Below, piece by piece: positions 13,077 through 27,248 of a stretch of 64,000 nt of DNA. Origin of the DNA: Oscillospiraceae bacterium (GTDB taxonomy: Bacteria; Bacillota; Clostridia; Oscillospirales; Acutalibacteraceae); NCBI GenBank assembly GCA_902792905.1, contig CADBBH010000003.1, positions 124,001 through 188,000 of the forward strand, read 5' to 3'. The position numbers were made by a program, and so were the translations under genes. The notes beneath the pieces were generated by a model. That model did no database searches, had not been told where the DNA came from, and saw only the letters and a list, made by a program, of their open reading frames with translations. Position 1 is the stretch's first letter; every line of letters starts with the position of its first letter.

Positions 13077-13126
13077 TTATTCATCTCCTGTGAATCAGAT
13101 TGAATTTCGGATAAAAATACATATTA

Positions 13127-13155
13127 AGTATAACTTATTTTACACAATAATACAA
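13127..13155 (-). promoter_or_regulatory. Promoter of the large membrane protein gene
   Basis: Minus strand TTGTAT (13150-13155), 17-base spacer, TATACT (13127-13132), divergent from the T-box promoter at 13209. Confidence 0.6.
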
Positions 13156-13208
13156 GAATAAATTTATTACAATATAATACCCCGGTTATCCCGCAGGCAA
13201 AATTTTTC

Positions 13209-13237
13209 TTGACAAACCGGGTTGTTTAGAGTATATT
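13209..13237 (+). promoter_or_regulatory. Sigma-A promoter of the leucine T-box unit
   Basis: TTGACA (13209-13214), 17-base spacer, TATATT (13232-13237). Confidence 0.9.
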
Positions 13238-13243
13238 ATACGC

Positions 13244-13509
13244 AATAACGCAAATGCAGAGATGATATTAAGCGCTTTGAGCAAGCTTTCAGAGAGCCGC
13301 CGGCAGGTGAGAGGCGGTAAGAATCCCAAAGGGCTGTCTCGTATCGGAGCAGGGTCTCTGAATTCATAGGAGATCACGGGTGATCCCGTTACAGGTCGGG
13401 AACTTGATGGAGTTCTGTGAGTGGCCGTTTCGGCGGCAATACGGGTGGTACCGTGGTTATTATGCAATAATCATCCCGCAGGGTTTTTACCTTGCGGGGT
13501 TTTTGTTTT
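13244..13509 (+). promoter_or_regulatory. T-box riboswitch, specifier read as CTC (Leu)
   Basis: Stem I carries the AGAGAG bulge motif and distal loop GGTGAGAGGCGG. The antiterminator T-box is ACGGGTGGTACCGTGG (13441-13456). The terminator follows: CCCGCAGG/CCTTGCGGGG (13474-13499) then TTTTTG. In the 3' strand of the specifier loop I read CTC at 13338-13340, then G, TATC and GGAGC. TATC pairs with GATA on the 5' side, and an upper helix pairs AGCGCTTTG with CAAAGGGCT with one mismatch. The acceptor-pairing bases TGGT imply a tRNA with discriminator A, as in tRNA-Leu. Presence of a T-box is certain; the codon assignment is by manual pairing. Confidence 0.9.
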
Positions 13510-13566
13510 GATATAACGCGGGCGCACTCATCATCTGCAAATCATAATCTCAAAGGAGAACTTATA

Positions 13567-14961
13567 ATGAGAAAGATTTATGTATCCGATTTCACTTTGA
13601 AGCAGCTGGCTCAGGACAGAAAAAATCCCCTGCTTTTCAGGGAGAAGGTCGCAATCGCCTCCGCCATTGACGGCATGGGGGTTGATACGATTGAGCTTGC
13701 GCCGGTCGCGAATTTCAAAGAGGACAGAATTATATATAAAACCATCTCCGCGGCGGTAAAGAATGCTTCTGTGGCGATTCCCGCCGGCTCAACCGAGGAG
13801 GAGGTTGCCATGGCGTGGGAGTGCATACAGACCGCGCAGAAACCCGTTCTCCAGATAGTCCTGCCGCTGAGCACGGTCACCATGGAATACACCTATCATC
13901 TCAAGGCTCCGAAGATGATGCTCCTTATCGAAAAGCTCGTCAAGGCGGCGAAGGAAAAGTGCGAAAATGTTGAATTCATCGCGCTTGACGCCACCAGAGC
14001 CGAGGAGAAGGTGCTCGACGAGGCTCTCGCTCTCGCCGTCAGCTGCGGCGCGACTGCGGTCACTCTCTCCGATGACGCGGGCACGCTCTTCCCCTATGAT
14101 TTCGCGAAATTCGCGAAGGGCGTGAAGGCGAAGCTGAGCGTTCCCGTATATGTTAAGGTTTCGGGCGCTCTCTATATGGAGACAGCTACTGCTTTCGAGA
14201 GCATTATTGCGGGCATCGACGGCGTGAAAGCGGTTGTCGAGGGCCACACCCAACTCAAGATTCACAAGATTGCCGCGGTTATCGCAGCTAAGGGCGAGTC
14301 TTATGAAATCTGCTCATCGCTCGACGCGACCAGAATTGCGACGGATGTAAAGGCGCTCACAGCGAAGGTTGACAGCACCGAGCAGGAGGAGGAATCCTCA
14401 CTACCCGCTGCTAATACCGACATATACCTTGACGGCGATTCAACCATCGAAGCCGTTTATGCCGCAGCCGAAAAACTCGGCTACGCGCTCACCGAAGAGG
14501 ACGCGGGCAATGTGCTCAGAGGGCTCAGACGCGTCTGCGAAAACAGAAGCGGTATAGATTCCAATGAGTTTGAGGCGCTCATCGCATCCTACGCGCAGCA
14601 GGCGCCCTCAACCTATCATCTTGAATACTACACAACCACAAACAGCAATCTGACATCCGCCATGGCGCACGTTGTGCTGACCAGAGACGGCGAAATAAAA
14701 ATTGAGGGAATGGGGACGGGAGACGGCCCTATCGACGCGGCGTTCGGCGCAATCGAGCAAGGAATCGGTTTCCACTATGAGCTTGACGATTTCAGGATTC
14801 ATACCGTCAGCCGCGGCAAGGAATCGCTCGGCTCCGCTCTTATCAAGCTCCGCCACAACGGCAAGGTTTATTCTGGCAACGGCCTCTCTTCCGATATAGT
14901 CGGTTCCTGCATCAGAGCATATATAAACGCTCTCAATAAGATAGTTTACGACGAAGACTGA
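13567..14961 (+). CDS. Isopropylmalate-synthase-like protein with degenerate active site and intact leucine-regulatory domain
   Basis: 464 residues. An HMGL-like TIM barrel (~1-265) is followed by a linker region and a LeuA-type dimer/regulatory domain (~350-460; KIEGMGTGDGPIDAAFGAIEQ, then GNGLSSDIVGSCIRAYINAL). The barrel keeps family landmarks (VEFIALDATRAEEK, VTLSDDAGTLFPYDF). It has lost the catalytic core: the usual DTTLRDGEQ is DFTLKQLAQ (8-16), the metal-binding HCHND is VKVSG (196-200), and GERAGN is absent. It is therefore unlikely to condense acetyl-CoA with a 2-oxoacid. I infer a leucine-sensing partner of the following ligase or a changed activity. It is first in the Leu T-box unit; AAAGGAG precedes the ATG at 13567, and 22 bases separate it from the next gene. 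Confidence 0.85.
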   Translation: MRKIYVSDFTLKQLAQDRKNPLLFREKVAIASAIDGMGVDTIELAPVANFKEDRIIYKTISAAVKNASVAIPAGSTEEEVAMAWECIQTAQKPVLQIVLPLSTVTMEYTYHLKAPKMMLLIEKLVKAAKEKCENVEFIALDATRAEEKVLDEALALAVSCGATAVTLSDDAGTLFPYDFAKFAKGVKAKLSVPVYVKVSGALYMETATAFESIIAGIDGVKAVVEGHTQLKIHKIAAVIAAKGESYEICSSLDATRIATDVKALTAKVDSTEQEEESSLPAANTDIYLDGDSTIEAVYAAAEKLGYALTEEDAGNVLRGLRRVCENRSGIDSNEFEALIASYAQQAPSTYHLEYYTTTNSNLTSAMAHVVLTRDGEIKIEGMGTGDGPIDAAFGAIEQGIGFHYELDDFRIHTVSRGKESLGSALIKLRHNGKVYSGNGLSSDIVGSCIRAYINALNKIVYDED

Positions 14962-14983
14962 TTTTCCGGTCAAGGAGATTAAT

Positions 14984-17440
14984 ATGAAACTCGGTTTTTC
15001 AACTAAAAACATAAATCCCGGCTCGTTTACCGAAACCTGCAATATGGCAAGGGATTACGGCTTTGCGGGCTTTGAGATATTTGACGCAAAGGCGGAGAAT
15101 AAGCGCCATTCCGATTCCGTTCTCAGAGACGGCTCGGCGGACGCGAAAAGAAAACTGCGCAACAGAGACCTGGCAGTCTCCGCAATCGTCTATCCCTTCC
15201 CCGTCGAGGATGAGAAGGCGGACGGCAACGTAATAAAGCAGTATGTTGACTGGGCTTATGCCGCAGGCATCGAAGCGGTTATTGTTTCTCTCGCCGGGGA
15301 GCCGGATTATGCCCTGCTGAGGGAAAAACTTACTCCCGCTGTTGAGAGAGCGGAAAAAACGGATATCAGCATTCTGCTTGAAACTTCGGGCCCGCTTGCC
15401 CACTCGGCGAAGGTGCTTGAAATCATCAATGAATTCGCAGCTGTTCCTCTCGGCGCGGCCTGGAATATCAGAGAGACTTATTTTGCCGCCGGTGAAACTC
15501 CCGAAAAGACGATTGAAACCCTCGGCGCTCATATAAAATATGTCCGCATCGGCGATAAGAACGGCGATGTGAACTGCCTTATCGGCGAGGGAACCCTGCC
15601 CGTAAAGGATTTCATCAACGCCATCCGTTCGCTCAATTATGACGGCTTTGTCTGCGTTGACTGGAATGACGAAATTGACGATCCCGATATAGTTCTCACT
15701 CATTTTGTAAACTATATGGCGGAAATCGAGGACCCCGTAAAAGAGAATACCGGTCTTTACTATAACAGGGCGCATACCGGCGCCTTTCCGTGGAAAAAAT
15801 ATGATATGATTGACAAGACCTTCTCGCAGGTTCTTGACACGATGTGCGATATTTTCCCGGATCAGCTGGCATTCAAATATACCACCCTCGATTATACGAG
15901 GACCTATACGCAGTTCCGCAAGGATGTTGACGACCTTGCCGCTGCTCTGATTTCACTCGGAGTGAAACCCGGACACCATGTCGCAATATGGGCGACCAAT
16001 GTACCCGCCTGGTATCTGACCTTCTGGGCGACCACAAAAATCGGAGCTGTGCTCGTAACCGTCAACACAGCATATAAAATCAACGAAATCGAGTATCTGC
16101 TCAGGCAGTCCGATACGCATACGCTCGTTATGATAGAATCCTGCAAGGATTCAAACTATAAGGAAATCATAAAAGAGCTCTGCCCCGAGCTTGAGAATCT
16201 TACGCCCGGAAAGCCCCTGTATTCAAAGCATCTGCCGTTCCTTCGCAACGTGATAACGGTCGGCTTCCGTATGGAGGGCTGTCTCACGTGGGAGGAGGTT
16301 ATGGCGAGAAGTTCGCTCATTCCTCACGAGGAAGTGCTCAGAAGGGCTGCCACCGTAAAACCGGACGATGTATGCAATATGCAGTATACTTCGGGCACGA
16401 CCGGTTTCCCGAAGGGCGTTATGCTCACTCACAGAAACGTAGTCAACGACGGCAAGATTATCGGCGACAGAATGGATTTATCGACTGCGGACAGAATGAT
16501 GATTCAGGTGCCGATGTTCCACTGCTTCGGAATGACTCTCTCGATGACTTCTATGATGACTCACGGCGGAACGCTCTGTCCGATGCCGTATTATTCGCCC
16601 AAATCCTCGCTCGCCTGCGTAAACGATGAAAAAATCACCTGCTTCAACGGCGTGCCGACAATGTTTATCGGTATGTTCAACCACGAGGATTTCGCAAAGA
16701 CCGATTTCTCGCATATGAGAACGGGCATTATGGCGGGTTCAAACTGCCCTCCCGACCTTATGAGGCAGGCGGCGCGTGAGATGCATATGATAGAGATTCT
16801 CTCCGTTTACGGAATGACCGAATCCGCCCCCGGCAGTACGATGGGCGAGGTCAACGAGGATGAGGATCACAGAGTTGAGACCGTCGGCTCCGCATTCCCG
16901 GGTGTTGAGTGCAAAATTATCGATCCCGAAACGGGCGAAGAGCTTCCCGACGGCGAAAACGGCGAATTCGTCGCGCGCGGCTTCAATATAATGAAGGGCT
17001 ATTATAAAATGCCCAAGGCGACTGCCGAAACGATTGACAAAGACGGTTGGCTTCACAGCGGTGATATCTGCTGCCGCACTCCCGATGGCTATTTCAAGGT
17101 CACGGGCCGTCTCAAGGATATGATAATCCGCGGCGGCGAAAACCTTTATCCGCGCGAGATTGAGGAATTCTATCTCACTCACGAAAAGGTACGCGATGTT
17201 CAGGTTGTCGGTGTTCCCGATGAGAGATACGGCGAGGAGGCTTGCGCCTGGATAGTGCTTCACGACGGTGAGGAATCCACTGAGGATGAGATGCGCGAAT
17301 TCGGCAATTCCCATATAGCGAGGCATAAGGTTCCGAGATATTTCATCTTTGTCAAGGCGCTCCCGATGAACGCCGCAGGCAAGATTCTCAAATATAAAAT
17401 GCGCGAGGAATCAATTGAAATGCTCGGGCTGAAGAAATAA
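14984..17440 (+). CDS. Xylose-isomerase-like TIM barrel fused to acyl-CoA synthetase (Leu unit)
   Basis: 818 residues. Residues ~1-255 form an AP-endonuclease-2/xylose-isomerase-like barrel (GYGFAGFEIFDAK-type start, VRIGDKNGD, GEGTLPVKDFINAIRSLNYDG). Residues ~270-818 form a complete AMP-dependent ligase: YTSGTTGFPKGVMLTHRN (~468), MTESAPGS, GRLKDMIIRGGENLYPREIEE, and the C-terminal catalytic lysine in AAGKILKYKM. The ligase half makes an acyl-CoA from a carboxylic acid, ATP and CoA. Under a Leu T-box the likely substrate is isovalerate, which is inference. The barrel's role is unknown, and its fusion to a ligase is unusual. Start at 14984 follows AAGGAG. A terminator follows at 17461. Confidence 0.88.
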   Translation: MKLGFSTKNINPGSFTETCNMARDYGFAGFEIFDAKAENKRHSDSVLRDGSADAKRKLRNRDLAVSAIVYPFPVEDEKADGNVIKQYVDWAYAAGIEAVIVSLAGEPDYALLREKLTPAVERAEKTDISILLETSGPLAHSAKVLEIINEFAAVPLGAAWNIRETYFAAGETPEKTIETLGAHIKYVRIGDKNGDVNCLIGEGTLPVKDFINAIRSLNYDGFVCVDWNDEIDDPDIVLTHFVNYMAEIEDPVKENTGLYYNRAHTGAFPWKKYDMIDKTFSQVLDTMCDIFPDQLAFKYTTLDYTRTYTQFRKDVDDLAAALISLGVKPGHHVAIWATNVPAWYLTFWATTKIGAVLVTVNTAYKINEIEYLLRQSDTHTLVMIESCKDSNYKEIIKELCPELENLTPGKPLYSKHLPFLRNVITVGFRMEGCLTWEEVMARSSLIPHEEVLRRAATVKPDDVCNMQYTSGTTGFPKGVMLTHRNVVNDGKIIGDRMDLSTADRMMIQVPMFHCFGMTLSMTSMMTHGGTLCPMPYYSPKSSLACVNDEKITCFNGVPTMFIGMFNHEDFAKTDFSHMRTGIMAGSNCPPDLMRQAAREMHMIEILSVYGMTESAPGSTMGEVNEDEDHRVETVGSAFPGVECKIIDPETGEELPDGENGEFVARGFNIMKGYYKMPKATAETIDKDGWLHSGDICCRTPDGYFKVTGRLKDMIIRGGENLYPREIEEFYLTHEKVRDVQVVGVPDERYGEEACAWIVLHDGEESTEDEMREFGNSHIARHKVPRYFIFVKALPMNAAGKILKYKMREESIEMLGLKK

Positions 17441-17460
17441 GCTATATTGTAATAAAAATG

Positions 17461-17487
17461 AACCCTCTCCCGGCGGAGAGGGTTTTT
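17461..17487 (+). terminator. Terminator of the leucine unit
   Basis: AACCCTCTCC pairs with GGAGAGGGTT, followed by TTTTC. Confidence 0.85.
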
Positions 17488-17563
17488 CATTCAGAACGAG
17501 CGTTTGCAGACGAAGAATTTGTATATTCTGCAATACAGGCAAGGAATTTTTTGTAAAAAATGC

Positions 17564-17592
17564 TTGACAAATGCGTTGTGCGGTGATAGAAT
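17564..17592 (+). promoter_or_regulatory. Sigma-A promoter of the isoleucine T-box unit
   Basis: TTGACA (17564-17569), 17-base spacer, TAGAAT (17587-17592). Confidence 0.85.
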
Positions 17593-17598
17593 ACGGTC

Positions 17599-17866
17599 AA
17601 TCAAATATGCAAAGGCAATGACGAAGACGGCAAAAGCAGGTAGTTTTCAGAGAGTCGGGGGTGCTGTGATCCCGGCAGCGAGCGTTTTTAAGCCCATCCC
17701 TTCCGAGCCGGAGGTCCAAAAGCGAAAGCAAGTAGATGCCTCCCGAGTCTGCTGCGTTAGTGCATAGGGTTTGTCTGAACCCGAAGAGCGGCGTGAAAAC
17801 GCAAATTGAGTGGTACCGCGGGAATTATATCTCGTCTCAAGTTATCTTGAGACGGGATTTTTTATT
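17599..17866 (+). promoter_or_regulatory. T-box riboswitch, specifier read as ATC (Ile)
   Basis: Stem I opens with GACGAAG and contains AGAGAG followed by a hairpin with GGTGCTGTGA in the loop. The T-box is GAGTGGTACCGCGG (17809-17822). The terminator is CTCGTCTCAAG/CTTGAGACGGG then TTTTTT. GAAG on the 5' side pairs with CTTC (17700-17703), and the codon just before it plus one base is ATC (17696-17698). This is the same geometry used to read the other two leaders. TGGT again calls for discriminator base A, as in tRNA-Ile. The T-box is certain; the specifier is a manual reading. Confidence 0.9.
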
Positions 17867-17903
17867 TGTAATTTGTATTGCTCACAGAAAAGGAGAAAAT
17901 AAT

Positions 17904-20180
17904 ATGGATGCCAAAGCTCTCAACGAAATGAACCGACTCACTCTCATAGCGGAGCGTATCAAGGAGATGCGCGACATTCTCGGCTATACTCCCGAAGAGA
18001 TGGCCGAAAAGACCGAGGTTTCCCTCGACGAATACCTTGAATATGAGAAGGGTAAAACGGATATGCCGTTTACCTTCCTTCATAAGTGCTCAATCGCCCT
18101 TAAAATTCAGCTTACCGAGCTGCTTGAGGGCTCCTCCGCTCACCTTTCATCCTATACCGTAACCCGCAAGGGCAGAGGCGAAAATACCGCCGAGGAAGAC
18201 GGAATAATGATTCAGAATATGGCTCCGAATTTCAAGGAAAAAATCGGCGAGCCGTATTATGTGACCTATAAATATTCCGAAGAGCTCCAGAATAAGCCGA
18301 TTCATCTCACGAAGCACGACGGCCAGGAATTCGACTTCATCGTTTCGGGCTCACTGCTCGTTCAGATAGGCAAAAAGCAGGAGCTCCTTCATGAGGGCGA
18401 CAGCATTTTCTATAATTCCTCCACGCCTCACGGCATGATTGCCGTTGACGGTAAGGACTGCGTATTTATCGCGATGATTCTGCCCGGCGAAAAGAAGGCA
18501 AACGAAGAGGATTTCCGCCGCACCATCGCCGATACGCGCCCCACGACCGGTCTCATCGTTGACCATTACGCGAAATGCGAAGAGGATGAAAACGGTTCGC
18601 TTAAAAGTATTCATTTCGAGAACACCGAAAAATTCAATTTCGGCTATGATATAGTCGATAAAATCGCGAGAAAATACCCCGACAAGCTCGCGATGATTCA
18701 CCTCGACATCAATAAGACCGAGAGAAGATATACCTTCCGCCAGATTATGCAGGAGAGCGACAGAGTCGCGAATTACTTCGCCTCGCTCGGCATCAAGAAA
18801 GGCGACAGGGTAATGCTCGTCCTCAGGCGTCATTATCAGTTCTGGTTCGCGATGATTGCGCTTCATAAGATGGGCGCAGTCGCGATTCCCGCCACCTACC
18901 TTCTCAAGGATCACGATTTCATTTACAGATACAATGCCGCCCATGTAAACACGATAGTCTGCACCGCCTTCGGCGACACCTGCGAAATAGCCGAGAGAGC
19001 GGCGGCGGAGTGCCCGAGCGTCGTCAACAAGATTCTTGTCGGCGGCAAGCGCGAGGGCTGGCACGATTTCGATGAGGAATATCCGAGATTTTCCTCACAC
19101 TTCCCGAGAACCGATGATACCCCCGGCGGAGACGACACCGCGCTGATATTCTTCTCATCGGGAACTACCGGCAACCCCAAGATGGTCGAGCATAAGCATA
19201 CCTATCCTCTCGGCCACTTCGTGACTGCGAAATACTGGCACTGCTGCGAGCCCGACGGTCTGCATTTCACGATTTCAGATACGGGCTGGGGCAAGGCTCT
19301 CTGGGGCAAGCTCTACGGTCAGTGGATGTGCGAGGGAGCGGTATTCGTCTATGATTTTGACCGCTTCAATTCCGCAGACATCCTTCCGCTTTTCGCTCAG
19401 TATCAGATAAAGACCTTCTGCGCACCGCCCACGATGCTCAGAATGCTTATCAAGGAAGATATAACGAAATACGATTTCTCATCCGTCAAACATATGACAA
19501 CGGCAGGCGAGGCGCTCAATCCCGAGGTCGCCATCCAGTTCAAGAAGGCTACGGGTCTCGAGATAATGGAGGGCTTCGGCCAGACAGAGACTACGCTTGT
19601 TATCGGCAATCTCATCGGTTCGACGGTCCGCCACGGCTCAATGGGCAAAGCGTCACCGCAGTATGATGTTGATATAGTCGATCCCGACGGAAATCCCGTT
19701 GCTGACGGCGAGACAGGCGAAATCGTTATCAGAATCGACAAGGGAGATCCTGTCGGCCTCTTCAAGCAGTATATCGATGAGGAAGAGAAGAATATCGAGT
19801 GCCGCAGGCAGAATATGTATCATACAGGCGACACCGCCTGGCGCGATGAGGACGGAAACTTCTGGTATGTCGGCAGAGTCGATGACGTCATCAAGTCCTC
19901 GGGCTACCGCATAGGGCCGTTCGAAATCGAAAGCGTAATTATGGAGCTTCCCTATGTCCTTGAATGCGGCGTTTCCGCAGCTCCCGATGAAATCAGGGGT
20001 CAGATAGTCAAGGCGAGTATAGTGCTGACCAAAGGTACCGTCGGCACGGAAGAGCTCAAAAAGGAAATCCAGAATTATGTCAAGGAGCATACCGCTCCAT
20101 ATAAATACCCTAGACTGGTTGTATTCCGCGATGATTTACCCAAGACAATAAGCGGTAAAATCATAAGAAATCAGCTGTAA
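17904..20180 (+). CDS. XRE-cupin-acyl-CoA synthetase fusion (Ile unit)
   Basis: 758 residues. Order: XRE-type helix-turn-helix (~12-70), cupin_2 barrel (~105-182; HDGQEFDFIVSG, GDSIFYNSSTPHGM), and a complete AMP-dependent ligase (~235-758) with FFSSGTTGNPKM (~417), SDTGWGKALWGKLYGQW, GQTET, GRVDDVIKSSGYRIG and the lysine of ISGKIIRNQL. The ligase half resembles the medium/short-chain ACSM type. XRE-cupin is a layout normally found in stand-alone small-molecule-responsive repressors, so here a regulator appears welded to an enzyme. Under an Ile T-box the inferred substrate is 2-methylbutyrate. The ATG at 17904 is preceded by AAAGGAG and lies after the T-box terminator. Longer in-frame openings run through the riboswitch and are rejected. 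No terminator is seen before the next promoter. Confidence 0.9.
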   Translation: MDAKALNEMNRLTLIAERIKEMRDILGYTPEEMAEKTEVSLDEYLEYEKGKTDMPFTFLHKCSIALKIQLTELLEGSSAHLSSYTVTRKGRGENTAEEDGIMIQNMAPNFKEKIGEPYYVTYKYSEELQNKPIHLTKHDGQEFDFIVSGSLLVQIGKKQELLHEGDSIFYNSSTPHGMIAVDGKDCVFIAMILPGEKKANEEDFRRTIADTRPTTGLIVDHYAKCEEDENGSLKSIHFENTEKFNFGYDIVDKIARKYPDKLAMIHLDINKTERRYTFRQIMQESDRVANYFASLGIKKGDRVMLVLRRHYQFWFAMIALHKMGAVAIPATYLLKDHDFIYRYNAAHVNTIVCTAFGDTCEIAERAAAECPSVVNKILVGGKREGWHDFDEEYPRFSSHFPRTDDTPGGDDTALIFFSSGTTGNPKMVEHKHTYPLGHFVTAKYWHCCEPDGLHFTISDTGWGKALWGKLYGQWMCEGAVFVYDFDRFNSADILPLFAQYQIKTFCAPPTMLRMLIKEDITKYDFSSVKHMTTAGEALNPEVAIQFKKATGLEIMEGFGQTETTLVIGNLIGSTVRHGSMGKASPQYDVDIVDPDGNPVADGETGEIVIRIDKGDPVGLFKQYIDEEEKNIECRRQNMYHTGDTAWRDEDGNFWYVGRVDDVIKSSGYRIGPFEIESVIMELPYVLECGVSAAPDEIRGQIVKASIVLTKGTVGTEELKKEIQNYVKEHTAPYKYPRLVVFRDDLPKTISGKIIRNQL

Positions 20181-20215
20181 TTGTCAATAATACCTAAAAA
20201 TTCAAAAATTTTGTA

Positions 20216-20244
20216 TTGACAATTCACAAAAGTTGTTTTATTAT
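20216..20244 (+). promoter_or_regulatory. Sigma-A promoter of the valine T-box unit
   Basis: TTGACA (20216-20221), 17-base spacer, TATTAT (20239-20244). Confidence 0.8.
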
Positions 20245-20250
20245 ATTTTA

Positions 20251-20496
20251 TACTTATAAAGGCTGTGACGAAGAGGGATTATATCCTATGCCTTCAGAGA
20301 GGCGGCGTATGGTGCGAGCCGCCGGCGGATGATATGAATCTGTAGCTTCCGAGCCGGGAGGAAGAAAGCGCTTTTGCAAGTAGAACCTCCCCGTAAAGCT
20401 GCGTTAAAGTATTCGAGAGGCGTTTTATGCGCAATTTGAGTGGTACCGCGGGAAATGTATCCCGTCTCAAGTTTATCTTGGGACGGGATTTTTTAT
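20251..20496 (+). promoter_or_regulatory. T-box riboswitch, specifier read as GTA (Val)
   Basis: Stem I starts GACGAAGAGG and carries AGAGAGGCGGC with the distal loop GGTGCGA closed by GCCGCC. The T-box is GAGTGGTACCGCGG (20438-20451). The terminator is CCCGTCTCAAG/CTTGGGACGGG then TTTTTT. GAAG pairs with CTTC (20346-20349), and the codon before it plus one base is GTA (20342-20344). ATC also occurs four bases further upstream (20338-20340), but it does not fit the spacing seen in the other leaders. TGGT implies discriminator A, as in tRNA-Val. Confidence 0.88.
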
Positions 20497-20528
20497 TCTT
20501 TTCATATACCATCTGAACGGGGGTAATT

Positions 20529-22817
20529 ATGGAACTTACAAATCTTGACACACGAATAAAGGAGATGGCTGCCCGAATAAGGGAGCTTCGCGAGGTGGAG
20601 GGAATCTCCGCCGAGACGATGGCTGAGAAAACGGGCGTTTCAGTAGAGGAATACCTTGCCTGCGAAAACGGCGAGAGCGATCTGAATTTCGCTTTCCTCT
20701 ATAAATGCGCCGCGGCTTTTTCGGTTGACGTAACCAACCTTATTGAAGGCCATACCCCGAAGCTTTATTCCTACTTTGTCAACCGCAAGGGCGACGCTCC
20801 GAAAATTTCGGACGCTCACGGTATGACCTACTATAATATGGCCTATGCCTTCAGGAACAGAATTTCCGAGCCGCTTTTCGTCGTCAGCAAATATGACGAA
20901 GAGGCGCAGCACAAGGCGATTGAGCTTACGAGCCACAGCGGCCAGGAGCTTGATATTGTCGTTGACGGCTATCTCTGCGTTCAGGTCGGCGAGCATAAGG
21001 AAACTCTCGGCCCCGGCGACAGCATTTATTATGATTCGGGCACTCCTCACGGAATGATTGCGGTCAACGGAGCGGATTGCTCATTCTACGCAATAGTCCT
21101 CAATCCGACCGGCGAACCGATTCCCGAGCTTGTTGCCGCTAAGAAGGTCGATGCTCCCCCGAAGGGCCATATCCGCGACACCAAAGACAGAGTCTATAAG
21201 AGATATATCGAAACCGAAGAGGATGAGAACGGAACTCCGCTCTCGGTGAAATTCAAAAACGAGGAAAAATTCAATTTCGCATTTGATATCATCGACGAGA
21301 TTGCGAATAAGGATCCCGAAAAAATCGCTCTTCACTATGTTTCAAACGATAAGGAATACAGAGCTTTCACTTTCAAGGAGATAAAGCAGAATTCTAACCG
21401 CTGTGCCAACTATTTCAAGAGTCTCGGCATAAAGAAGGGCGACAGAGTGATGCTCGTTCTCAAGCGCCATTACCAGTTCTGGTTTGCGATTCTCGGTCTC
21501 CACAAGCTCGGTGCCATTCCGATCCCGGCCACAAATCAGCTTCTCGTTCACGATTTTGAATACAGATTCAAGGCGGCGAATATTACCTCGATAATCTGCA
21601 CTGCGGACGGCGAGGTCTGCGACAATGTTGACGAGGCCCTCAAGAATTATGACGGCATGGTCAATAAAATGATAGTCAACGGCTCGCGCGAGGGATGGAG
21701 AAGCTTCAACGAAGAATACCTGATGTATTCAAGCCATTATCCGCGCCCGGCGGATGCTCCCTGCGGCAAGGATTATATGCTGATGTATTTCACATCCGGC
21801 ACTTCGGGCTATCCCAAAATCGCGACTCACAATTATCTCTATCCGCTCGGACAGTTCCACACCGCGAAATACTGGCACGATGTCGATCCCGAAGGAATTC
21901 ACTTCTCGATTTCCGATACCGGCTGGGCAAAGGCGGCCTGGGGCAAGCTCTACGGCCAGTGGATGTGCGAAACATCGCTCTTTGTCTATGACTTTGACCG
22001 CTTCCATGCGGAGGACGTGCTCCCGATGTTCGCGAAATACAATATCACCACCTTCTGCGCTCCGCCGACAATTCTCAGAATGCTAATCAAGCAGGATATA
22101 ACCCACTACGATTTATCCTCAATCCAGCATATGACGACGGCGGGCGAGGCGCTCAACCCCGAGGTTTACAAGCAGTTCGAAAAGGCGACGGGCCTTCAGA
22201 TTCTCGAGGGCTTTGGCCAGACGGAAACCCCCGTTCTGCTCGCAAACTTCAGAGGAGCGGACCACAAGGTCGGCTCGATGGGCAAGGCGGCCCCGCACCT
22301 GAATATCAAACTTCTCGACTCCGACGGTAAACCCGTTCCCCCGGGCGAGACAGGCGAAATCTGCATAGACATCAGCAACGGCATCCCCTACGGCATCGCG
22401 GTCTGCTACTTCGGCTCCGAGGATAAAACTCAGGAGACCTGGTGCAACGGCTGGTATCATACCGGCGACACGGCCTGGATGGATGAGGACGGCTTCTTCT
22501 GGTATGTCGGCAGGGTTGACGATGTCATCAAGTCCTCCGGCTACCGCATCGGCCCCTTCGAGATTGAGAGCGTCATCATGGAGCTTCCCTATGTTCTCGA
22601 ATGCGGCGTTTCCCCCGCTCCCGATCCGGTCAGAGGCCAGATTGTCAAGGCGAGCATCGTGCTCACCAAGGGCACCGAGGGCACCGAGGAGCTCAAGAAG
22701 GAAATTCAGAACTACGTCAAGGTTCATACCGCTCCTTATAAGTATCCCCGCCTTGTCGTTTTCAGGGATGAGCTTCCCAAGACGACCAGCGGCAAGATTA
22801 TGAGAAATCAATTATAA
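20529..22817 (+). CDS. XRE-cupin-acyl-CoA synthetase fusion (Val unit)
   Basis: 762 residues and a close paralogue of the Ile-unit fusion. XRE domain (~12-72), cupin (~107-185; HSGQELDIVVDG, GDSIYYDSGTPHGM), then AMP-dependent ligase with YFTSGTSGYPKI (~418), SDTGWAKAAWGKLYGQW, GQTETP, GRVDDVIKSSGYRIG and TSGKIMRNQL. The last ~85 residues differ from the Ile paralogue at only about eight positions. Under a Val T-box the likely acid is isobutyrate (inference). It heads an operon: the aminotransferase, ATPase and oxidoreductase genes follow without an intervening terminator. Start at 20529 is close behind the T-box terminator and has a GGGGG ribosome site. Confidence 0.9.
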   Translation: MELTNLDTRIKEMAARIRELREVEGISAETMAEKTGVSVEEYLACENGESDLNFAFLYKCAAAFSVDVTNLIEGHTPKLYSYFVNRKGDAPKISDAHGMTYYNMAYAFRNRISEPLFVVSKYDEEAQHKAIELTSHSGQELDIVVDGYLCVQVGEHKETLGPGDSIYYDSGTPHGMIAVNGADCSFYAIVLNPTGEPIPELVAAKKVDAPPKGHIRDTKDRVYKRYIETEEDENGTPLSVKFKNEEKFNFAFDIIDEIANKDPEKIALHYVSNDKEYRAFTFKEIKQNSNRCANYFKSLGIKKGDRVMLVLKRHYQFWFAILGLHKLGAIPIPATNQLLVHDFEYRFKAANITSIICTADGEVCDNVDEALKNYDGMVNKMIVNGSREGWRSFNEEYLMYSSHYPRPADAPCGKDYMLMYFTSGTSGYPKIATHNYLYPLGQFHTAKYWHDVDPEGIHFSISDTGWAKAAWGKLYGQWMCETSLFVYDFDRFHAEDVLPMFAKYNITTFCAPPTILRMLIKQDITHYDLSSIQHMTTAGEALNPEVYKQFEKATGLQILEGFGQTETPVLLANFRGADHKVGSMGKAAPHLNIKLLDSDGKPVPPGETGEICIDISNGIPYGIAVCYFGSEDKTQETWCNGWYHTGDTAWMDEDGFFWYVGRVDDVIKSSGYRIGPFEIESVIMELPYVLECGVSPAPDPVRGQIVKASIVLTKGTEGTEELKKEIQNYVKVHTAPYKYPRLVVFRDELPKTTSGKIMRNQL

Positions 22818-22844
22818 TTTTCACATATTGAAAGGATGACGACA

Positions 22845-23918
22845 ATGGATATGGAAATCAAAATCACAAAGACAACTTCCCCCAAGGCTAAGCCCGCAGA
22901 TGAATCGAAACTCGGCTTCGGCAAAGTATTTACCGACCATATGTTCGTAATGGACTACTCCGCCGACCAGGGCTGGCACGATGCAAGAATCGTACCTTTC
23001 GACTATCTTCCGATTCACCCCGCAGCAAGCGTTCTCCACTACGGCACCGAGATTTTTGAAGGTCTCAAGGCCTACAGAACGGTCAACGGCGATATCGCCC
23101 TCTTCCGTCCTATCGAAAACATCAGAAGAATGAATAATTCAGCAGAGCGTCTCTGCCTGCCCCAGATTGATGAGGATTTCGCTCTCAAGATTTTCGACAC
23201 TCTCGTTGAGCTTGAGAAGGACTGGGTTCCCCATTCCGAAGGCACCTCGCTCTATATCAGACCCTTTATGATCGGCAATGACGAGAATCTTGGCGTTCAC
23301 GCGGTTCACAACGCAAAGTACGTTGTAATTCTCTCTCCCTCGGGCGCATACTACGCAGAGGGCATCAACCCCGTTAAAATCGCTATCGAGGCAGAGGATG
23401 TCAGAGCGGTCAGAGGCGGCACCGGCTACGCAAAGTGCGGCGGCAACTACGCAGCTTCCCTTCGCGCGGGTCAGAAGGCAGAGGAGAAGGGATTCACCCA
23501 GGTTCTCTGGCTTGACGGCGTTGAGAGGAAATATATCGAAGAGGTCGGTTCAATGAACGTTATGTTCAAGATCGGCGGCGAAATCGTTACCCCGAAGCTT
23601 ACCGGCTCCGTTCTTCCCGGCATCACCAGAAAATCCTGCTGCGAGCTTCTCAGAGACAAGGGCTACACCGTTTCCGAGCGTCTGCTCTCCATCGACGAGC
23701 TTGAAGACGCTGCGAGACAGGGTACTCTCGAAGAGGCGTGGGGCACCGGCACAGCCGCCGTTGTCTCCCCAATCGGCTGGCTCAGCTACAAGGACGACGA
23801 ATTCGAAATCAGCAACGGCAAAATCGGCGATGTCACCCAGATGCTCTATGATGAACTCACCGGCATCCAGTGGGGCAAGCTCGAGGATAAATACGGCTGG
23901 ATTCACAAGGTATGCTGA
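22845..23918 (+). CDS. ilvE: Branched-chain amino acid aminotransferase
   Basis: 357 residues, fold-type IV PLP aminotransferase of the longer, eukaryote-like BCAT type. Landmarks are LHYGTEIFEGLKAYR, YIRPFMIG, the PLP lysine K197 in GTGYAKCGGNYAASL, and EEAWGTGTAAVVSPIGW. It interconverts 2-oxoisovalerate, 2-oxoisocaproate and 2-oxo-3-methylvalerate with Val, Leu and Ile using glutamate. Second gene of the Val T-box operon, so it should be raised on valine starvation, which supports the biosynthetic direction. The ATG at 22845 has AAAGG nine bases upstream. An ATG at 22836 abuts the ribosome site and is less likely. The gene overlaps the next by 7 bases. Confidence 0.93.
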   Translation: MDMEIKITKTTSPKAKPADESKLGFGKVFTDHMFVMDYSADQGWHDARIVPFDYLPIHPAASVLHYGTEIFEGLKAYRTVNGDIALFRPIENIRRMNNSAERLCLPQIDEDFALKIFDTLVELEKDWVPHSEGTSLYIRPFMIGNDENLGVHAVHNAKYVVILSPSGAYYAEGINPVKIAIEAEDVRAVRGGTGYAKCGGNYAASLRAGQKAEEKGFTQVLWLDGVERKYIEEVGSMNVMFKIGGEIVTPKLTGSVLPGITRKSCCELLRDKGYTVSERLLSIDELEDAARQGTLEEAWGTGTAAVVSPIGWLSYKDDEFEISNGKIGDVTQMLYDELTGIQWGKLEDKYGWIHKVC

Positions 23919-24580
23919 ATCTGACTCCCAAAAGAGTAACTCTTTTCTGCGGCCACTACGGCACGGGCAAGACCAACGCCGCGGTAAACTACGCGTTTTT
24001 TCTTAAACGCGCTCTCGGCAAAAATGTAAAAATAGCGGATATGGATATAGTCAATCCGTATTTCCGCACCAAGGACAGCGAAAAGGAGCTCGGCGAAGCG
24101 GGAATTGAACTGATTTCCCCGCATTACGCGAATACGAATGTCGATCTGCCCGCTCTCCCGCAGGAGCTTTACGGTCTGTTTGAATTCAGGGATTCTTATG
24201 CCGTGCTCGATATAGGCGGCGATGACAGAGGTGCTTACGCGCTCGGCAGATTCGTGCCGCTGATTCTTGAGGAAAATGATTACGACAACTTTTTCGTCGC
24301 GAATTTTTACAGACCTCTGACCGCGAATGCCGCCGACGCCTTCGAAGTGATGAAGGAAATAGAGGTAGCGGGCAAGGTTCCGTTTACCGGAATTGTCAAT
24401 AATTCGAATCTCGGCGACGAGACGACGGCGCAGGATATTTTAAAAAAGATTCCGCTTGCCGAAGAACTCGCCTCAATGAGCGGTTTACCCGTAGTGATGA
24501 CCTCGGCAAAGAGAAGTATTGCGGAAAATCTCGGCATCGGGAACATTCTTCCGCTTGATTTACAGGCAAAATACTATTGA
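23912..24580 (+). CDS. MinD/ParA-like P-loop ATPase in the oxidoreductase operon
   Basis: 222 residues. The N-terminal P-loop FCGHYGTGKTN (12-22) is followed by VKIADMDIVNPYFRTKDSE and YAVLDIGGDDRGAY, which fit the SIMIBI/MinD-ParA class. No DNA-binding or membrane-targeting helix is obvious. It overlaps the aminotransferase gene by 7 bases and precedes the ferredoxin subunit gene, so it should be made together with the oxidoreductase. A role in iron-sulfur cluster insertion or assembly of the oxidoreductase is possible, as for other MinD-like ATPases such as the Nbp35/ApbC group. I see no CxxC cluster motif to prove it. Confidence 0.75.
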   Translation: MLNLTPKRVTLFCGHYGTGKTNAAVNYAFFLKRALGKNVKIADMDIVNPYFRTKDSEKELGEAGIELISPHYANTNVDLPALPQELYGLFEFRDSYAVLDIGGDDRGAYALGRFVPLILEENDYDNFFVANFYRPLTANAADAFEVMKEIEVAGKVPFTGIVNNSNLGDETTAQDILKKIPLAEELASMSGLPVVMTSAKRSIAENLGIGNILPLDLQAKYY

Positions 24581-24595
24581 GAAAGGAATGTTTAT

Positions 24596-24802
24596 ATGCC
24601 TAAAGTAACCTTTGATACGGATATGTGCAAGGGCTGCGGACTCTGTGTCAGCGCCTGCCCGAAGCATATTCTTGTTATCGCCAGGGATAAAATAAATAAA
24701 AAGGGACATTCCCCCGCCGAAATGACAGATCAGTCTCAGTGCATCGGCTGCGCCTTCTGCGCGACCATGTGCCCCGACTGCGTCATAACGGTAGAGAAGT
24801 GA
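24596..24802 (+). CDS. 2-oxoacid:ferredoxin oxidoreductase, ferredoxin-like delta subunit
   Basis: 68 residues with two 4Fe-4S motifs: CKGCGLCVSACP (~11-22) and CIGCAFCATMCP (~49-60). It is the electron-transfer subunit of the four-subunit oxidoreductase encoded directly after it, passing electrons between the TPP/Fe-S centre and external ferredoxin. Ribosome site GAAAGGA; 9 bases separate it from the alpha-subunit gene. The order delta-alpha-beta-gamma is common for VOR/KOR-type complexes. Confidence 0.93.
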   Translation: MPKVTFDTDMCKGCGLCVSACPKHILVIARDKINKKGHSPAEMTDQSQCIGCAFCATMCPDCVITVEK

Positions 24803-24811
24803 GGTGCAGAC

Positions 24812-25876
24812 ATGGCTGAAAAAGTTCTTATGAAAGGTAATGAGGCAATAGCCGAAGCCGCAATCAGAGCCGGCTGTCTCCATTACTTCGGATATCCCAT
24901 CACCCCGCAGACCGAACTCGCGGCTTATATGGCAAAGAGAATGCCCAAAATTGAGGGCGGAGTCTTCCTTCAGGCAGAGAGCGAAATTGCTGCTATCAAT
25001 ATGGTTTACGGCGTCGCCTCCACCGGCAAGAGAGTTATGACCTCGTCATCGAGCCCCGGAGTTTCCCTCAAGCAGGAGGGTATCTCCTATATCGCGGGCG
25101 CGGATCTTCCCGCCCTGATAGTCAACGTTCAGAGAGGCGGCCCCGGTCTCGGCGGCATCCAGCCCTCCCAGTCCGATTATTTCCAGGCGACCAAGGGCGG
25201 CGGCCACGGCGACTATCATCTGATAGTTCTCACCCCCGCTTCGGTTCAGGAAATGGCTGACCTCACAGGCCTTGCATTTGACCTCGCGGATAAATACCGT
25301 ATGCCCGCAATGCTTCTTGCGGACGGCACTATGGGCCAGATGATGGAGCCTGTTGAGCTTCCCGAAACCGCACCCGAAATGATTGAAAAACCCTGGGCGG
25401 TCACCGGAACTCAGATGAAGAGAAAGCACAATATCATCAACTCCCTCTACCTCGTTCCCGATGAGCTCGAGAAGATGAATTTCGAGCGCTATGAGAGATA
25501 TAAACAGGTAGAGGCAAATGAAACAAGATACGAAGAATACATGATGGACGACGCTGAAATCTGCGTAGTCGCATTCGGTATCGCCGCGCGCGTTTCGAGA
25601 AACGCGGTTGTCGAGGCGAGAAAGCAGGGCATAAAGGCCGGCCTTATCAGACCGATTACCATCTGGCCCTTCCCGAAAGAGGCGATTGCCAGGGCGGCGA
25701 CTCACTGCAAAGAAATCATCTCCGTTGAGCTTTCAATGGGTCAGATGATTGAGGATATCGCGCTCTCCGCTCAGTGCAAGGTTCCCGTAACCCTCTGCAA
25801 CAGAGCCGGCGGCATGATTCCTTCGCCCGATCAGGTCTTCGACGCAATCAAAAAAGCTGCAGGAGGTAATGAATAA
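24812..25876 (+). CDS. vorB: 2-oxoacid:ferredoxin oxidoreductase alpha subunit (VorB-like)
   Basis: 354 residues, the usual length of VorB/KorA alpha subunits. It begins LMKGNEAIAEAAIRAGC and contains FGYPITPQTELAAYM, TSSSSPGVSLKQEGISYIAG and the C-terminal IRPITIWPFPKEAI domain. The complex interconverts a 2-oxoacid plus CoA with acyl-CoA, CO2 and reduced ferredoxin. Sequence alone cannot separate branched-chain (VOR) from 2-oxoglutarate (KOR) enzymes. The BCAT, the acyl-CoA ligases and the Val T-box favour branched-chain substrates, run reductively. The stop overlaps the beta start (TAATG). Confidence 0.88.
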   Translation: MAEKVLMKGNEAIAEAAIRAGCLHYFGYPITPQTELAAYMAKRMPKIEGGVFLQAESEIAAINMVYGVASTGKRVMTSSSSPGVSLKQEGISYIAGADLPALIVNVQRGGPGLGGIQPSQSDYFQATKGGGHGDYHLIVLTPASVQEMADLTGLAFDLADKYRMPAMLLADGTMGQMMEPVELPETAPEMIEKPWAVTGTQMKRKHNIINSLYLVPDELEKMNFERYERYKQVEANETRYEEYMMDDAEICVVAFGIAARVSRNAVVEARKQGIKAGLIRPITIWPFPKEAIARAATHCKEIISVELSMGQMIEDIALSAQCKVPVTLCNRAGGMIPSPDQVFDAIKKAAGGNE

Positions 25877-26628
25877 TGGCTGTCGTATTTGAAAAACCCA
25901 AATCACTCACCGATGCGCCGCTCCATTACTGCCCCGGCTGCACTCACGGAATAATCCACCGTCTCGTTGCTCAGGCGATTGACGAACTCGGTATCGAAGG
26001 CAGAACAATCGGCGTCGCGCCGGTCGGCTGCGCGGTTATGGCATATAATTATTTCAGCTGCGATATGGTTGAAGCCGCCCACGGCAGAGCCCCCGCAGTT
26101 GCGACAGGTCTCAAGAGAAGTCTGCCCGAAAATATCATCTTCACATATCAGGGCGACGGCGACCTCGCTTCAATCGGTATGGCGGAGACGGTCCATTCCG
26201 CAACCAGAAACGAGAATATCACAATCATTTTCGTAAACAATGCGATTTACGGTATGACAGGCGGCCAGATGGCCCCGACTTCTCTTCCCGGTCAGGTCAC
26301 CCAGACCTCGCCTTACGGCAGAGATGTCACCACCGCCGGCTTCCCGATCAGAATCTGCGAACTCCTTTCCACTCTTGACGGACCCGAATACATCGAGAGA
26401 GTTGCTGTCAACAATGTAAAGAATATAAAGCAGGCACAGAAGGCAATCAAGAAGGCGTTTGAGAATCAGGTCAACGGCAAGGGATTTTCGCTTGTAGAAG
26501 TTGTTTCTTCCTGCCCGACCAACTGGGGAATGACTCCCGATGACGCTCTCAGATGGATTGACGAGAAAATGATTCCCTATTATCCTCTCGGCGTTTATAA
26601 AGACAGAAGCGCAAAGGAGGGCGAATAA
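25876..26628 (+). CDS. 2-oxoacid:ferredoxin oxidoreductase beta subunit (TPP-binding)
   Basis: 250 residues. The thiamine-diphosphate motif runs from GDGDLASIGMAE to NNAIYGMTGGQM. The N-terminal CPGCTHG (19-25) is the conserved Cys pair of this subunit. It binds TPP and Mg2+ and performs the acyl transfer chemistry with the alpha subunit. It overlaps the alpha gene by one base and is followed by the gamma gene after one base, so the stoichiometry is likely held by translational coupling. Confidence 0.93.
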   Translation: MAVVFEKPKSLTDAPLHYCPGCTHGIIHRLVAQAIDELGIEGRTIGVAPVGCAVMAYNYFSCDMVEAAHGRAPAVATGLKRSLPENIIFTYQGDGDLASIGMAETVHSATRNENITIIFVNNAIYGMTGGQMAPTSLPGQVTQTSPYGRDVTTAGFPIRICELLSTLDGPEYIERVAVNNVKNIKQAQKAIKKAFENQVNGKGFSLVEVVSSCPTNWGMTPDDALRWIDEKMIPYYPLGVYKDRSAKEGE

Positions 26629-26629
26629 T

Positions 26630-27160
26630 ATGACTACTGAGATTCTTATTGCCGGTTTCGGCGGTCAGGGTGTGCTCTTCGCGGGCAAATTCCTTGCTTA
26701 TAAAGCGCTCCTTGAGAACAAGCAGCTCTCCTGGCTCCCCTCCTACGGCCCCGAAATGCGCGGCGGCACCGCAAACTGTTCGGTCATCATCAGCGATGAA
26801 CCGGTCGGCTCACCGATAGTTTCAAAGCCCGATGTGCTTATCGTCATGAATCTCCCGTCCCTTGATAAATATGAGGACGATGTAGTTCCCGGCGGCAAGA
26901 TTTTTGTTGACTCCACTCTCATTGAGAGAAAGGTCAACAGGACCGATGTCGAGGTTCATTATATCCCCGCGACCAAGCTCGCGAACGATATTGAAGCTCC
27001 GACTCTCGCCAATATGATTATGATAGGCAAGGTTATCAAAGAGACAGGCGTCGTTCCCTATGATAATATCGACAAGGCACTCGACAAGGTTGTCTCTGCA
27101 AGAAAGGCCGCCCTGAAGGAAATCAACTTCAAGGCGCTTGACACAGGTTATAACAATTAA
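26630..27160 (+). CDS. 2-oxoacid:ferredoxin oxidoreductase gamma subunit
   Basis: 176 residues, standard gamma-subunit length. [19 protein letters not shown] at the start and [16 protein letters not shown] are the family signatures, the latter part of the CoA-side active-site region. It completes the delta-alpha-beta-gamma set and is the last gene of the Val T-box operon. AAAGGAGG lies just upstream of the ATG, and a strong terminator follows. Confidence 0.93.
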
Positions 27161-27173
27161 CCGCACAATAATT

Positions 27174-27204
27174 CAGCCCTCCCGCAAGGGAGGGTTGTTT
27201 TTTA
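27174..27204 (+). terminator. Terminator of the valine T-box operon
   Basis: CAGCCCTCCC pairs with GGGAGGGTTG around GCAA, followed by TTTTTT. Confidence 0.9.
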
Positions 27205-27213
27205 CCGTATAAC

Positions 27214-27242
27214 CAAAAGAGCAGGCACGGAGCCTGCTCTTA
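27214..27242 (-). terminator. Terminator of the HtrA protease gene
   Basis: Minus strand AGAGCAGGC pairs with GCCTGCTCT and is followed by TTTT. Confidence 0.85.
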
Positions 27243-27248
27243 AAAATA

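Follow-up and report, generated by a model that had tools for sequence, protein, structure and literature searches.

In the locus studied here, acyl-CoA ligases are placed behind leader RNAs predicted to respond to the supply of amino acids. The stretch of DNA analyzed (G000:C3:124001–188000; 64,000 nucleotides, hereafter the window) belongs to a draft genome, G000, of an Oscillospiraceae gut bacterium, with 2.07 Mb and 84.4% completeness. Between 13209 and 27197 it carries three units, each with its own promoter-like site, T-box and leader terminator, one after another on the + strand. The first unit consists of a LeuA-like gene followed by a TIM-barrel–acyl-CoA ligase fusion; the second is a single gene encoding a helix-turn-helix (HTH)–cupin–acyl-CoA ligase; the third begins with another HTH–cupin–acyl-CoA ligase and continues with a branched-chain aminotransferase (BCAT), a MinD-like ATPase and the ferredoxin, VorB, thiamine pyrophosphate (TPP) and gamma subunits of a 2-oxoacid:ferredoxin oxidoreductase (VOR), ending in a terminator. 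This three-unit salvage module very probably takes the place of the classical route to branched-chain amino acids, by starvation-controlled reductive carboxylation of branched acids.

According to this proposal, a shortage of charged tRNA-Leu, tRNA-Ile or tRNA-Val would make the matching T-box read through and thus raise the corresponding ligase, which would activate isovalerate (for leucine), 2-methylbutyrate (for isoleucine) or isobutyrate (for valine) taken from the surroundings to its acyl-CoA. The VOR complex would then use reduced ferredoxin to carboxylate the acyl-CoA, and the resulting 2-oxo acid would be transaminated by BCAT to leucine, isoleucine or valine, a single VOR and a single BCAT serving all three arms. 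From the leaders onwards we infer the steps (substrates, direction of VOR, sharing of VOR and BCAT) from protein families and gene context. T-boxes switch genes on when the charged cognate tRNA is scarce, and this fits biosynthesis, not breakdown.

Two samples were used for comparison. Genomes were compared among 80 members of the Acutalibacteraceae, including G000 and its only congener in the sample, G015, which is 97% complete; loci were compared among 80 deduplicated loci from named records, with extra loci drawn from other families.

Leaders, specifier codons and enzymes of the Val unit

A scan of positions 13000–27400 for promoter-like and terminator-like sites returned 26 of the former, compared with 13.5 ± 3.8 in shuffles, and 28 of the latter (15.9 ± 4.2 in shuffles). 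The three top + strand promoter-like sites directly preceded the three leaders, and the four top-scoring terminator-like hairpins corresponded to the three leader ends and the end of the gene string (Table 1). Leaders 1 and 3 scored above the RF00230 gathering score of 93 bits. Leader 2 remained under it; the whole model was covered, AGAGA, the T-box core and the terminator were present, and its orthologues displayed leaders in the same place.

The position of the specifier was calibrated on six other T-boxes of G000 by means of cmscan alignments, the names of the genes behind them being taken from translations. All six codons were as expected (UUC for PheS, GCC for AlaS, GUA for ValS, ACC for ThrS, UGG for a TrpB-like gene and UGC for CysE–CysS). 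The calibrated position corresponded to CUC (Leu) in unit 1, AUC (Ile) in unit 2 and GUA (Val) in unit 3, the last being the same codon as that found at the T-box before the ValS-like gene of G000.

Specifiers of the relatives were read with a script whose score depends on pairing and on adjacent motifs and takes no account of the amino acid, so that it has no bias towards the expected answer; it left the CysE/CysS leader of G000 unread and misread some other leaders. Fitting readings were taken without a second reading, and, of the misfits, L128, L148, L174, and L090 were rescanned with cmscan. Ligases were classed as Ile-type or Val-type by their best BLAST match to the window pair (51 and 80 sequences, respectively, window included). 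In the named loci, the specifier was Val at all 69 leaders read for the Val-type ligase (of 79 copies, 10 unread), Ile at all 43 read for the Ile-type ligase (of 53 copies, 10 unread) and Leu at all 19 read for the LeuA-like gene (of 25 copies, 6 unread). Agreement was thus obtained for 131/131 specifiers read, 68, 42, and 18 of them by the script, respectively, and three (L128, L174, and L148) after re-reading with cmscan. The three ligase units of G015 carry Val, Ile and Leu T-boxes, and its Leu leader (L090), a misfit of the script, agreed with its gene after the rescan. The Leu codon also stayed with the LeuA-like gene in other families wherever it was read. An isolate, Ruminococcaceae bacterium YRB3002 (L146), has a Val-type ligase preceded by a T-box with the codon GTA. 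Odd script readings obtained outside the named loci were 'AGT' before an Ile-type ligase (L057), and 'ATC' (L066/L096, one locus) and 'AAA' (L075) before LeuA-like genes.

When 140 ligases were placed in a tree, all 71 Val-labelled ones fell, together with 10 unread and no Ile-labelled ones, on the same side of a branch with support 93 (81 rows). Changes of label along the tree amounted to 8 for Val and 10 for Ile vs. shuffled means of 47.0 and 39.9, respectively. At the level of sequence, the specifier codons assign leucine, isoleucine and valine to units 1, 2, and 3, and the pairing of codon and gene is widely conserved.

An earlier interpretation of this DNA, made from the letters alone and referred to here as the sequence-only reading, ran the last unit through a BCAT, a MinD-like ATPase and a four-subunit oxidoreductase to one terminator, and this was borne out by the Pfam and NCBIfam matches and by the final hairpin. 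BCAT lay above two curated cut-offs (NF009897, and TIGR01123 with 390.3 vs. 250 bits). The four-subunit make-up of VOR was found, VorB and gamma scoring above curated cut-offs and delta and beta being present under all curated cut-offs listed. The open reading frame of the MinD-like protein gave no match in Pfam or NCBIfam, and its name comes from a P-loop recognized by eye; the gene (23912–24580) adjoins VOR in most of the relatives seen, also where no ligase is nearby (G001, G009, and G079), and its product has perhaps a role in metallocluster or electron supply. The sequence-only reading also placed three ligases, each behind its own T-box. Ligases and T-boxes are there as described, but ligase 1 is the second gene of its unit, after a LeuA-like gene (13567–14961) that had been missed, and nothing had been said of the N-terminal HTH and cupin parts of ligases 2 and 3 or of the TIM barrel of ligase 1.

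Acyl-CoA ligases and their proposed substrates

The best match of ligases 2 and 3 among solved structures was MacsMa (3etc; next chain 343 bits), and their top NCBIfam match was NF047394 (MbcS), with 436.9 and 402.7 bits and a cut-off of 850. They are relatives of MbcS rather than MbcS itself. MacsMa of M. acetivorans prefers 2-methylbutyrate and has a Gly replacing the pocket Trp of Acs, according to excerpts of PMC10455477. When aligned with E. coli Acs, both window ligases presented Gly in the column of W414 (the Acs Trp414/416 position); the Gly of TTAGEALNP was rejected as the replacement for the Acs Trp, given that the alignment places the replacement at GFGQTET. The Trp of the AKYW motif was kept in 51/51 Ile-type and 80/80 Val-type ligases and aligned with a Trp of 3etc that is taken as Trp259 of MacsMa.

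Fourteen positions were at least 85% conserved within each class and yet different between Ile-type (51) and Val-type (80) sequences. Thirteen of them, of which two were fixed in every sequence, belonged to the HTH–cupin region and the linker. The only one in the catalytic domain was GW[G/A]K, with Gly in 51/51 Ile-type vs. Ala in 80/80 Val-type ligases; it aligned with V310 of E. coli Acs, presumably an acetate-pocket residue, and MacsMa has Gly there. The extra pocket methyl of the Val-type would fit an acid one carbon smaller, that is, isobutyrate instead of 2-methylbutyrate. Ligase 2 is therefore proposed as a putative 2-methylbutyrate-CoA ligase and ligase 3 as a putative isobutyrate-CoA ligase. 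MbcS of S. aureus uses 2-methylbutyrate and isobutyrate and is poor on isovalerate (excerpts of PMC10026030), which fits a leucine arm using a ligase of another family; on the basis of its Pfam and NCBIfam matches and of its unit with a Leu T-box, ligase 1 is proposed as an isovalerate-CoA ligase.

The kinship with MbcS leads to another explanation, in which the ligases would mainly supply branched acyl-CoA for membrane fatty acid synthesis, as MbcS does in S. aureus (same excerpts), VOR and BCAT having a separate task. The first rank of NF047394 among the NCBIfam matches of ligases 2 and 3 goes in this direction; however, both remained far from its cut-off, each ligase answers to the tRNA of one amino acid, and BCAT and VOR come directly after the Val ligase. 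We consider a main role in membrane lipids very improbable.

The HTH and cupin parts of the window ligases (17904–18600 and 20529–21230; Pfam) were found unfused in G001 and G009, where an Ile T-box is followed by separate, adjacent frames for HTH–cupin and ligase; KARI (ketol-acid reductoisomerase) was not found in these two genomes and LeuB was present. The occurrence of a transcription factor-like part on a ligase suggests a second control, at the protein level.

The module and the classical pathway across genomes

KARI, searched as PF07991, was clear in 41 of the 80 family genomes (252–271 bits), whereas in G000 and G015 nothing stronger than weak Rossmann matches (about 20 bits) was obtained. 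Neither IlvD (PF00920 at E 1e-20) nor LeuB (at 1e-60) was found in these two genomes, and no acetolactate synthase (IlvB) appeared over the cut-off, with one weaker TPP enzyme in each (216 and 240 bits).

The LeuA-like gene was present in 23/80 genomes (in one of them in two fragments), and KARI appeared in 1 of these 23 vs. 40 of the 57 others (P = 3.4e-8; this and the other Fisher tests of module against KARI ignore kinship). The fusion ligase (at least 770 bits) was present in 26/80 genomes, with KARI in 4/26 vs. 37/54 (P = 9.8e-6); when five lower-scoring fusions were added, the figures became 6/31 vs. 35/49 (P = 8e-6). Both genes co-occurred in 22 genomes (P = 1.2e-14). With the comparison restricted to genomes of at least 90% completeness (58), the P values against KARI were 2.3e-6 for the LeuA-like gene and 3.5e-4 for the fusion ligase. 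Across the 80 family genomes, the module seldom occurs together with KARI or LeuB.

VOR and BCAT are reversible, and such gene sets occur in amino acid fermenters. The locus could then be one of breakdown, where BCAT and VOR would oxidize valine, isoleucine and leucine to acyl-CoA and the ligases, running in reverse, would yield branched acids and ATP. T-boxes with Leu, Ile and Val specifiers act on amino acid shortage, the opposite of what breakdown would call for; no convincing match to the biosynthetic genes included in the search was obtained in G000 and its congener; and MacsMa and MbcS, the characterized relatives, are described as making acyl-CoA in the excerpts cited above. A fermentative role is accordingly judged highly improbable.

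As to gene order, the sequence-only reading suggested looking for a conserved succession ligase–BCAT–VOR in other Clostridia; the parts do stay together, but their orders differ. A frequent arrangement was an Ile T-box with its ligase, a Val T-box followed by ligase, MinD, ferredoxin, VOR and BCAT (or with BCAT first, as in the window), and a Leu T-box with LeuA-like gene and TIM-ligase. In L206, from another family, Leu T-box, LeuA-like gene, TIM-ligase, BCAT, MinD, ferredoxin, VOR and ligase form one string.

Several observations weigh against the proposed salvage route. In G015 the units are scattered, separate contigs carrying the ligases, the BCAT–VOR string and the LeuA-like pair. Among the 157 leaders of named loci, 26 were unread or not found; these copies lie at contig edges, present the T-box core alone or have no leader seen, and they include L165, L168, and L178, where Ile-type and Val-type ligases stand head to tail with a gap within 30 bases. 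In two loci of other families, L211 (G167) and L215 (G140), the script read an Ile codon (AUC) before a single ligase that adjoins a Leu unit and best matches the Val-type (919 and 934 bits, respectively), so that the split between both types may fail in other families, or the script misread them. VOR and BCAT are found only in the Val unit here; a shortage of isoleucine or leucine alone would thus raise just a ligase, and the Ile and Leu arms must use a basal or Val-controlled level of both enzymes. Elsewhere VOR comes after the Leu unit (L206) or after an Ile-type ligase (L056, L057, L058, and L092; the readings of L056 and L092 gave an Ile codon).

Other points of this kind concern the classical genes. 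One of the weak matches in G000, of Rossmann type, is borderline for KARI, with 20.1 bits (20.7 with frame neighbours) and a cut-off of 20.6, and this genome is incomplete, as stated above. The genome-wide check for ilvBCDN and leuBCD suggested along with the sequence-only reading was answered in part: no convincing match to KARI, IlvD, LeuB or IlvB was obtained in G000 and G015, and the search did not include LeuC, LeuD and IlvN, nor LeuA proper and IlvA. Used as query (E 1e-20), the LeuA-like protein missed LeuA in most genomes with LeuB. G056 possesses KARI, IlvD and LeuB together with the LeuA-like gene and the fusion ligase; G003, G012, and G040 possess KARI, IlvD, LeuB and the fusion ligase; and G060 has an IlvD match. 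Finally, 17 of the 80 genomes had neither KARI nor fusion ligase, 10 of them being at least 90% complete; loss of KARI alone does not, therefore, imply the module. Taking all these points together, T-box-controlled reductive carboxylation, as already put forward by the sequence-only reading, remains the very probable function, supported by the specifiers, the classical genes searched for and not found, the distribution of the module vs. KARI and LeuB, and the kinship with MacsMa.

Some further features of the relatives were observed. At a contig end of G015 (L190 1–453, contig C12, reverse orientation) a BCAT fragment was 97% identical to that of the window over 150 residues, its neighbours being less similar (MinD 57%, ferredoxin and VOR genes 66–79%); this could be due to gene conversion, to a recent transfer or to faulty binning. 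Module loci L132, L178, L125, L135, L142, and L148 come from records labelled Spirochaetales, Lachnospiraceae, Solobacterium or Erysipelotrichaceae, reflecting either horizontal transfer or mislabelled bins. In L043 (15819–18055) and L048 (5529–7776, reverse orientation), a predicted pair of the methionine pathway, sulfhydrylase-like and homoserine succinyltransferase-like (names from translations), was located beside the module. Outside the window, from G000:C1:162491 on (L088 9500–15475), a T-box with a Tyr codon (UAC) is followed by an AMP-forming ligase, IorA-like and IorB-like proteins, a PaaK-like ligase and a protein with an ACT domain (the names IorA, IorB, PaaK and ACT likewise from translations). 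Homologues of its first ligase were present in 27/80 family genomes, and G000 also has prephenate dehydratase. This locus may be read as following the same logic, with aromatic amino acids made from aryl acids.

The leucine unit and the comparison with known systems

The LeuA-like protein of unit 1 carries the LeuA_dimer allosteric domain (PF08502, 88 bits vs. a cut-off of 24.9), its predicted model has the fold of isopropylmalate synthase (LeuA), and its score was under the curated cut-offs for LeuA (212.9 bits vs. 532). The metal-binding Asp, the HxH motif and the GERAG loop, which are motifs of LeuA, were present in three real LeuA. In an alignment of 69 LeuA-like rows (66 distinct), with gaps counted as not kept, the metal Asp, either metal His or the Arg of GERAG were kept in 0/69, whereas the catalytic Arg column was still Arg in 15/69 and the Glu column of GERAG was Glu in 10/69. 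Conservation was higher in the allosteric domain than in the barrel in LeuA-like proteins (63% vs. 39%; 22 rows), the contrary being observed in the three real LeuA (54% vs. 67%). The LeuA-like gene preceded the TIM-ligase in 37/37 loci scored (25/25 named and 12/12 from other families), short or contig-edge family loci such as L061–L083 being left unscored. For the TIM-barrel–ligase itself, the ligase part of the predicted model was poor (mean pLDDT, the predicted local distance difference test, 69.7), and phmmer with the TIM barrel alone gave three weak matches.

That this protein is a working isopropylmalate synthase, feeding 2-oxoisovalerate and acetyl-CoA into the classical branch to leucine, would agree with its modelled fold, its LeuA_dimer domain, the Leu T-box upstream and the partly kept Arg and Glu, but is hardly credible given the metal ligands and GERAG Arg lost from every row, the low score against the LeuA cut-off and LeuB not found in 22 of the 23 genomes having the gene. 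We propose instead that it would be a non-catalytic, leucine-sensing pseudoenzyme acting on the adjacent ligase of the leucine arm. In an extended form, to which we assign even chances, a LeuA free of catalysis would bind leucine through LeuA_dimer and throttle the TIM-barrel–ligase, the HTH–cupin parts being the matching regulators of the Ile and Val arms. If so, feedback control of the classical leucine pathway would have been carried over to a pathway of other enzymes, and each arm would have two controls, a protein sensor and a T-box that monitors charged tRNA.

Table 1. Position of the features of the three units in the window and evidence for each of them.
Feature	Position	Strand	Evidence
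Promoter-like site, Leu unit, TTGACA-17-TATATT	13209..13237	+	Consensus scan, 11/12 matches
T-box 1, specifier CUC (Leu) at 13338–13340	13250..13481	+	RF00230, 94.3 bits; alignment with G000 T-boxes
Terminator hairpin, leader 1	13473..13500	+	12 pairs and T run
LeuA-derived protein, 464 aa	13567..14961	+	Pfam: HMGL-type barrel without metal ligands, LeuA_dimer domain
TIM-barrel (AP_endonuc_2) and AMP-forming acyl-CoA ligase, 818 aa	14984..17440	+	Pfam; PRK12583, 659.8 bits, under cut-off of 832
Promoter-like site, Ile unit	17564..17592	+	11/12 matches
T-box 2, specifier AUC (Ile) at 17696–17698	17609..17842	+	RF00230, 76.2 bits, E 7.5e-17; alignment
Terminator hairpin, leader 2	17829..17858	+	13 pairs and T run
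HTH, cupin and AMP-forming acyl-CoA ligase, 758 aa	17904..20180	+	Pfam; 3etc, 597.8 bits; Gly at GW[G]K
Promoter-like site, Val unit	20216..20244	+	11/12 matches
T-box 3, specifier GUA (Val) at 20342–20344	20256..20472	+	RF00230, 104.3 bits; alignment
Terminator hairpin, leader 3	20459..20489	+	13 pairs and T run
HTH, cupin and AMP-forming acyl-CoA ligase, 762 aa	20529..22817	+	Pfam; 3etc, 594.8 bits; Ala at GW[A]K
Branched-chain aminotransferase (IlvE type II)	22836..23918	+	NF009897, 480.7 bits vs. cut-off 307
MinD-like P-loop ATPase	23912..24580	+	No family match; gene order
Two-cluster ferredoxin (VOR delta), 68 aa	24596..24802	+	Pfam Fer4; under NCBIfam delta-subunit cut-offs
VorB (2-oxoacid:ferredoxin oxidoreductase alpha)	24812..25876	+	NF005507, 548.9 bits vs. 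cut-off 399
TPP-binding beta subunit	25876..26628	+	PF02775
Gamma subunit	26630..27160	+	PF01558; TIGR02175, 84.6 bits vs. cut-off 81.1
Operon terminator	27174..27197	+	10 pairs, 7 GC, then T run

Rumen anaerobes have a reductive carboxylation route (Allison and co-workers). In reductive carboxylation, acyl-CoA, CO2 and reduced ferredoxin give a 2-oxo acid that is subsequently transaminated. The salvage module proposed here would supply the genes and the regulation for a route whose chemistry in rumen microbes has long been known, and many of the records with the module come from herbivore guts, according to their titles. Moreover, the amino acid served by each gene can be read from its T-box, and the question of which ligase uses which acid can be tested directly for each gene. 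The module would also provide genomic markers for organisms dependent on cross-fed isoacids, and the LeuA-like protein would be a conserved case of an enzyme of a lost pathway turned into an apparent regulator.

In the literature, the reference list of PMC7356843 includes entries on anaerobes that form leucine out of isovalerate (1966), valine out of isobutyrate (1971) and isoleucine out of 2-methylbutyric acid, and isoleucine from 2-methylbutyrate is given as a probable route in M. ruminantium (excerpts of PMC2812497). Within the titles and abstract starts listed by searches of open-licence papers, neither a T-box-controlled ligase–VOR–BCAT set nor a LeuA pseudoenzyme was found, which is not proof of their absence; nor did these searches indicate the ligase responsible for each acid in these Clostridia or the control of the route. 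The novelty claimed by the sequence-only reading is thus to be narrowed: the gene set and its regulation appear new, whereas the chemistry dates from papers published in 1966 and 1971.

Compared with the reductive carboxylation route of the rumen, the acids, the amino acids and the chemistry are the same, and the window differs in its dedicated ligases and amino acid-specific T-boxes, a gene set not found in the literature searched. With the T-box-controlled amino acid genes surveyed in PMC2494555 it shares leader architecture, specifier logic and control by terminators; excerpts of that survey treat tRNA ligases, transporters and classical biosynthesis, and in its main text words starting with CoA, ferredoxin or oxidoreductase do not occur. 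Ligases 2 and 3 resemble the AMP-forming ligases MbcS and MacsMa, both active on 2-methylbutyrate and the former also on isobutyrate, and keep the Trp259-like Trp and the Gly that replaces the Acs Trp; in contrast, they are fused to HTH and cupin parts, occur as Ile-type and Val-type paralogues and are tied to VOR, BCAT and T-boxes. With respect to 2-isopropylmalate synthase LeuA, the LeuA-like protein retains the fold, as modelled, and the leucine-allosteric domain, whereas the catalytic metal site has been lost and conservation has shifted to the allosteric domain.

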